Shown here: in pieces, positions 47,090-47,611 of the stretch
Numbering within the stretch: the stretch's first letter is position 1
Layout: each line of letters opens with the position of its first letter
Source: Strigops habroptila
Lineage: Eukaryota > Chordata > Aves > Psittaciformes > Psittacidae
Direction: 5' to 3'
Length of the DNA: 64,000 bases
Assembly: GCF_004027225.2 (NCBI RefSeq)
Contig: NC_044279.2
Span: 42,432,744-42,496,743, forward strand
Notes under the pieces: generated by a model
What the model was told of the DNA's origin: nothing
What the model saw: only the letters and a program-made list of their open reading frames with translations
The model's database searches: none
Position numbers and translations under genes: made by a program

Positions 47090-47611
47090 ATGATGGACCT
47101 TTTTGAAACTGGCTCCTATTTCTTTTTCTTGGACGGGGAGAATGGAGCCCTGCAGCAGCTGGAGATGGCCGAAGGATCCCCGCTGTACCCAGGCAGTGAC
47201 GGCACCTTGTCCCCCTGTCAGGACCAAATGCCGCCAGAAGCCGGCAGTGACAGCAGCGGAGAGGGAGCAATGTGCTGGCACCCCCGGGACTACAACCCCC
47301 TCACTTCCCCGGCCAGTGTTTGATCTGGGCTTGTAAAACTTTGCAAGAGAAAGTCGGCCCCCACGGACAGGCGGAAAGCAGCCACGCTGCGGGAGAGGAG
47401 GCGGACTGAAGAAGATCAACGAAGCCTTCGAGGCTTTGAAAAGGCGGACTGTGGCGAACCCCAAACCAGGAGGCTGCCCAAGGTGGAGATCCTGAGGAGC
47501 GCCATCAGCTACATCGAGAGGCTGCAGGACCTCTTGCACAGGCTGGATCAGCAGGAGAAAATGCAGGAGACCGGTGGGGACACCTTCAGCTTCAGCCCCA
47601 AGCAGGGAAAT
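47090..47611 (+). CDS. MYF6: MYF6 exon 1 (contains apparent frameshifts)
   Basis: Starts at tandem ATG codons (47090 and 47093); the first is used by convention. It ends at the donor GTAAGC at 47612 after SFSPKQGN. The segment from 47483 ([15 protein letters not shown]) is in the same frame as the ATG because six extra bases lie between them. The Cys/Trp box and the basic region are read in a different frame from the start. Confidence 0.92.

Follow-up and report, generated by a model that had tools for sequence, protein, structure and literature searches.

Six single-base insertions in exon 1 of MYF6 in the kakapo genome assembly are very probably consensus errors

The window, the whole 64,000-nucleotide stretch of the Strigops habroptila assembly analyzed here (C3:42432744-42496743; positions below are counted from its first letter), contains the myogenic regulatory genes MYF6 (MRF4) and MYF5, which start at 47090 and 54431, respectively, both on the + strand, and a phosphatase gene further upstream. 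MYF6 lies ahead of MYF5 on the same strand, which is the typical arrangement. The phosphatase gene is presumably PTPRQ, a name that we take from synteny. The coding part of MYF6 exon 1 ends at 47611 and is followed directly by a GT donor. The features considered below are as follows.

15967..16101, + strand, tyrosine phosphatase exon (presumably PTPRQ), in frame
18484..18663, + strand, tyrosine phosphatase exon (presumably PTPRQ), in frame; its reported TAA is intronic, shortly after the GT donor
20321..20488, + strand, tyrosine phosphatase exon (presumably PTPRQ), in frame
46973..46979, + strand, TATATAA, a TATA-like box
47090..47611, + strand, MYF6 exon 1, coding part as assembled; 77 amino acids, then TGA at 47321
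47090..47262, + strand, clean 5' part of MYF6 exon 1, GC 0.578
47263..47470, + strand, patch with six single-base insertions, GC 0.596
47471..47611, + strand, clean 3' part of MYF6 exon 1, from the end of the HLH onward, GC 0.592
47817..47907, + strand, MYF6 exon 2, open, with AG/GT flanks
48131..48249, + strand, MYF6 exon 3, open to TAA, with an AG acceptor
48777..48782, + strand, AATAAA poly(A) signal
54431..54937, + strand, MYF5 exon 1, the control neighbor, open over 169 codons

In addition to gene order, the domains identify the gene as MYF6, and they do so across different reading frames. Independently of the comparison with human MRF4, positions 1-51 of the Pfam family PF01586 lie in the start frame, while positions 57-81 lie in the second frame. 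Helix 1 is readable in the third frame, and no Pfam family was found in that piece. The HLH match is back in the start frame and is weakened (24.8 bits vs 56 for MYF5), and MYF6 is absent from the 85 HLH matches listed in the whole-genome profile search. The MyoD bHLH structure 1mdy aligns with the downstream piece along the whole domain, although the middle matches poorly. When read through the shifts, 159 of the 172 aligned residues are identical to human MRF4 exon 1.

To locate the frame changes, we aligned MYF6 exon 1, allowing for frameshifts, with its counterpart from human MRF4. The alignment placed six +1 events, at 47264, 47268, 47341, 47405, 47460 (which can equally be placed in the A run at 47463-47465) and 47470, and no -1 events. 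The preliminary description of this DNA had proposed six single-base insertions in one direction between 47263 and 47470, and the alignment bears this out. Paralogs from the same genome gave largely the same positions: MYF5 and MYOD1 both placed +1 events at 47341, 47405, 47460 and 47470, and MYOG placed them at 47335, 47405, 47460 and 47470. The two most upstream events are based on the human ortholog, with the addition of MYF5 for 47268 alone. Further shifts appeared with MYF5 (47230 and 47240), MYOG (47234, 47259, 47291, 47567 and 47575, the last four being -1) and MYOD1 (47196, 47197, 47216, which is -1, and 47585) as the reference. These were treated as probable noise of distant alignment, because the ortholog requires none of them and the N-termini of the paralogs align poorly. 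As for the kind of insertion, a two-base run is extended in three cases (47263-47265, 47340-47342 and 47463-47465), a single base is doubled in two (47269-47270 and 47469-47470) and a new base is added in one (47405), so that the earlier count of four lengthened runs has to be reduced to three. None of the six falls inside a run of at least four bases listed for the patch.

The literal product of the assembled gene is a protein of 77 residues that ends at the TGA at 47321 and lacks the bHLH. The first ATG past the patch in the frame of VEILRSA, at 47561, would be too late for DNA binding. As had been noted before, the net change of +6 returns MYF6 to the start frame ahead of VEILRSA, and this frame has no stop after 47323 within exon 1. 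The return to frame would suit a cell that copes with the shifts by programmed frameshifting or by splicing out tiny introns. This would require six separate events in one exon, and the genome's own MYF5, MYOG and MYOD1 are open in the corresponding region. One- and two-base introns are themselves reported as an annotation artifact of false indels for zebra finch PCDH17 (PMC9516821). We judged both devices implausible in MYF6, and this explanation has a negligible probability.

The rest of the gene and its surroundings are intact, in agreement with the preliminary description. Both introns have their GT and AG sites, exons 2 and 3 are open, and the TATA-like box and the poly(A) signal were both read by eye at the positions given above. 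MYF5, described earlier as clean, proved so: its open exon 1 matched the Basic, HLH and Myf5 models. An assembly gap as the cause of the breaks in MYF6 was ruled out, as the window contains no N. Downstream of MYF5, the window also carries a tandem repeat with the consensus CCTCCT (59195-59392, 33 copies, strong strand skew) and a 50-bp tandem repeat (62795-62941, 2.9 copies, 93% matches).

If MYF6 were a true unitary pseudogene, the six insertions would have gathered after selection was lost, and MRF4 would be absent. The truncated product is what such a gene would encode, and loss need not be lethal, given that one mouse Mrf4 knockout allele is described as compatible with survival (PMC4976255). 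The same source reports that Mrf4 knockdown in adult rodent muscle leads to hypertrophy. The lesions themselves point the other way. A decayed gene is expected to show mixed indels and substitutions under relaxed constraint, whereas the patch shows insertions only in an otherwise conserved protein, with clean flanks, intact splice sites and downstream exons, and six indels that lie within 208 bp and add up to a return to frame. The patch contains one likely missense candidate, a Phe codon (TTC) at 47305-47307 where both human MRF4 and the genome's own MYOG have Cys; it may be a real change or a seventh error, of the substitution type. The alignment has one further mismatch, Asn for His near 47268, which is contingent on the placement of the extra base.

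We estimated how well the two explanations account for these features. Raw PacBio reads aligned with blasr are given 8.33% insertions, 3.43% deletions and 1.07% substitutions, and Canu MHAP-corrected PacBio reads 0.30% insertions and 0.26% deletions, in PMC7671305. With the insertion shares of indels from that source, the probability that six of six are insertions is 0.126 for raw PacBio, 0.024 for Canu-corrected PacBio, 0.008 for raw Nanopore and about 1e-6 for corrected Nanopore reads. Under gene decay, it is 0.0013 to 0.016 if insertions are taken to make up 0.33 to 0.5 of indels. On these figures, the insertion-only direction is by itself only moderate evidence. A continuous-long-read table in another paper gives deletions at 8.8% vs insertions at 2.9%, perhaps because the alignment convention is reversed. 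The scarcity of substitutions weighs more than the direction of the indels: if four substitutions are assumed to accompany each indel, one nonsynonymous change or none would be seen with a probability of 2.9e-7, and if two are assumed, with a probability of 0.0012. The chance that all six fall within ~208 of 523 bp is about 0.04. Insertion density in the patch is near 2.9%, which is far above that of consensus-corrected PacBio reads; therefore, the patch must be nearly uncorrected if it is a consensus error.

The whole assembly (1.149 Gb in 89 contigs) was searched at the DNA level for an intact second copy or haplotig of MYF6 exon 1, and none was found, a result that would also fit a pseudogene. 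A haplotig with a clean exon was rejected since the three DNA matches were MYF6 itself, MYOG and MYOD1. We then used other bHLH genes as a control set, consisting of 72 of the 85 HLH matches, including MYF5; the 13 with E-values of at least 5.7e-5 were left out. With MYF6 added, 73 sequences were scanned, and paralog cover was obtained in 69 of them (26,592 bases, possibly including repeats other than CR1). Before masking, frame-break candidates appeared in seven other bHLH loci. Two of the candidate pairs were viewed as DNA, which we recognized as presumably CR1 retrotransposon. All seven loci carry CR1-like DNA, and no candidate was left in them after masking with CR1 pieces that had been cut from three of these same loci (L060, L001 and L048). 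After masking, MYF6 was the only one of the 69 covered sequences with a short frame break, in a scan of modest sensitivity that caught MYF6, with its six insertions, via two match pairs only. The only HLH match containing a stop, at C4:83500474 (L015), was also dismissed, as its stop falls in a short GT-AG intron and the domain is intact. Runs of N adjoin two bHLH loci (L022, 883-1173; L040, 99-180), where gaps are possible.

Other domain families were also tabulated. In K_tetra, 34 of 44 matches cover at least positions 2-88, all of them free of stops, while stops occur in three of the 44, all partial. In Forkhead, 19 of 56 matches span at least 86 of 88 positions, again with no stop, and the three matches with stops are all partial. 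These two tables are weak controls because a broken domain could drop out of them, as MYF6 did from the HLH table. Forkhead genes that pair up by similar scores, at C26:4145796-4154327 and C25:15427570-15439196, lie on what are presumed to be Z and W, and are possibly retained gametologs. In the phosphatase table, stops occur in many exon-sized matches, as expected at intron edges, and the three exons in the window were inspected individually.

Taken together, the six insertions are very probably consensus errors in a long-read assembly and not gene loss. The preference for a noisy consensus over decay, expressed before this analysis, is supported by the direction of the indels, the few substitutions (six insertions, no deletions and one missense candidate), their confinement to ~208 bp with clean coding sequence on both sides, the clean exons of MYF5, MYOG, MYOD1 and the phosphatase gene, and the likely origin of the assembly from PacBio continuous long reads. 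The assembly is probably the one made for the kakapo by the VGP, whose assemblies of that period were built from such reads, with raw errors that are rich in insertions. The VGP authors describe short indels in the consensus, with the frameshifts that result, as the most frequent error and illustrate it with a bird gene (PMC8081667). About 200 bp of exon 1 would have been left near raw continuous-long-read quality, with few reads or no short reads correcting the patch. As raw reads of this type carry mostly extra bases, a stretch left in this state would contain insertions only, most of them copies of a neighboring base. Most likely, the real gene has no break and would produce normal MRF4.

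A comparable case from the same consortium is TLK1 of Anna's hummingbird, in which a locus of a continuous-long-read assembly escaped polishing and kept frameshift errors (PMC8081667, Extended Data Fig. 11a). According to that figure, the reads needed for polishing had gone to the alternate haplotype. MYF6 may differ in this respect: such a diversion is possible there, and the kakapo population is described as inbred. High GC as a cause of lost polishing reads finds no support in the patch itself, whose GC content is not above that of its clean flanks, although intron 1 has a GC content of 0.788. Here MYF6 differs from zebra finch PCDH17, where the exon is described as GC-rich, in an earlier, pre-VGP assembly (PMC9516821). 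STK33 of neognaths is an example of an avian unitary pseudogene (PMC4509753). It resembles the assembled MYF6 in that its reading frame was lost in a bird lineage, but no wider decay surrounds the lesions in MYF6.

We also considered a mixture, in which one or two insertions are real, being either fixed or carried by the sequenced bird as a segregating null allele, and the others are errors. The sequence offers no means of telling a real single insertion from a false one, and the insertion at 47405 differs from the other five by adding a new base. Nevertheless, one cause explains all six, MYF6 has no other sign of relaxed constraint, and we regard the mixture as even less probable than a true pseudogene, which is itself highly unlikely.

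If the insertions are consensus errors, the locus serves as a warning, as a broken muscle-growth gene in a flightless bird invites an adaptive story; MRF4 is described as a brake on adult muscle growth on the basis of rodent knockdown work (PMC4976255). There is little chance that the insertions are real and that this heavy, flightless parrot lives without functional MRF4. Were it so, a bird would have lost a myogenic regulatory factor in nature, which would be striking and is directly testable; the genomes of 36 modern kakapo have been sequenced with short reads (PMC9903828). The titles and abstract openings of the literature matches listed contain no report of MYF6 loss in birds. A kakapo study dropped gene models with in-frame stops, and catalogs that drop such models may have lost MYF6 without notice.
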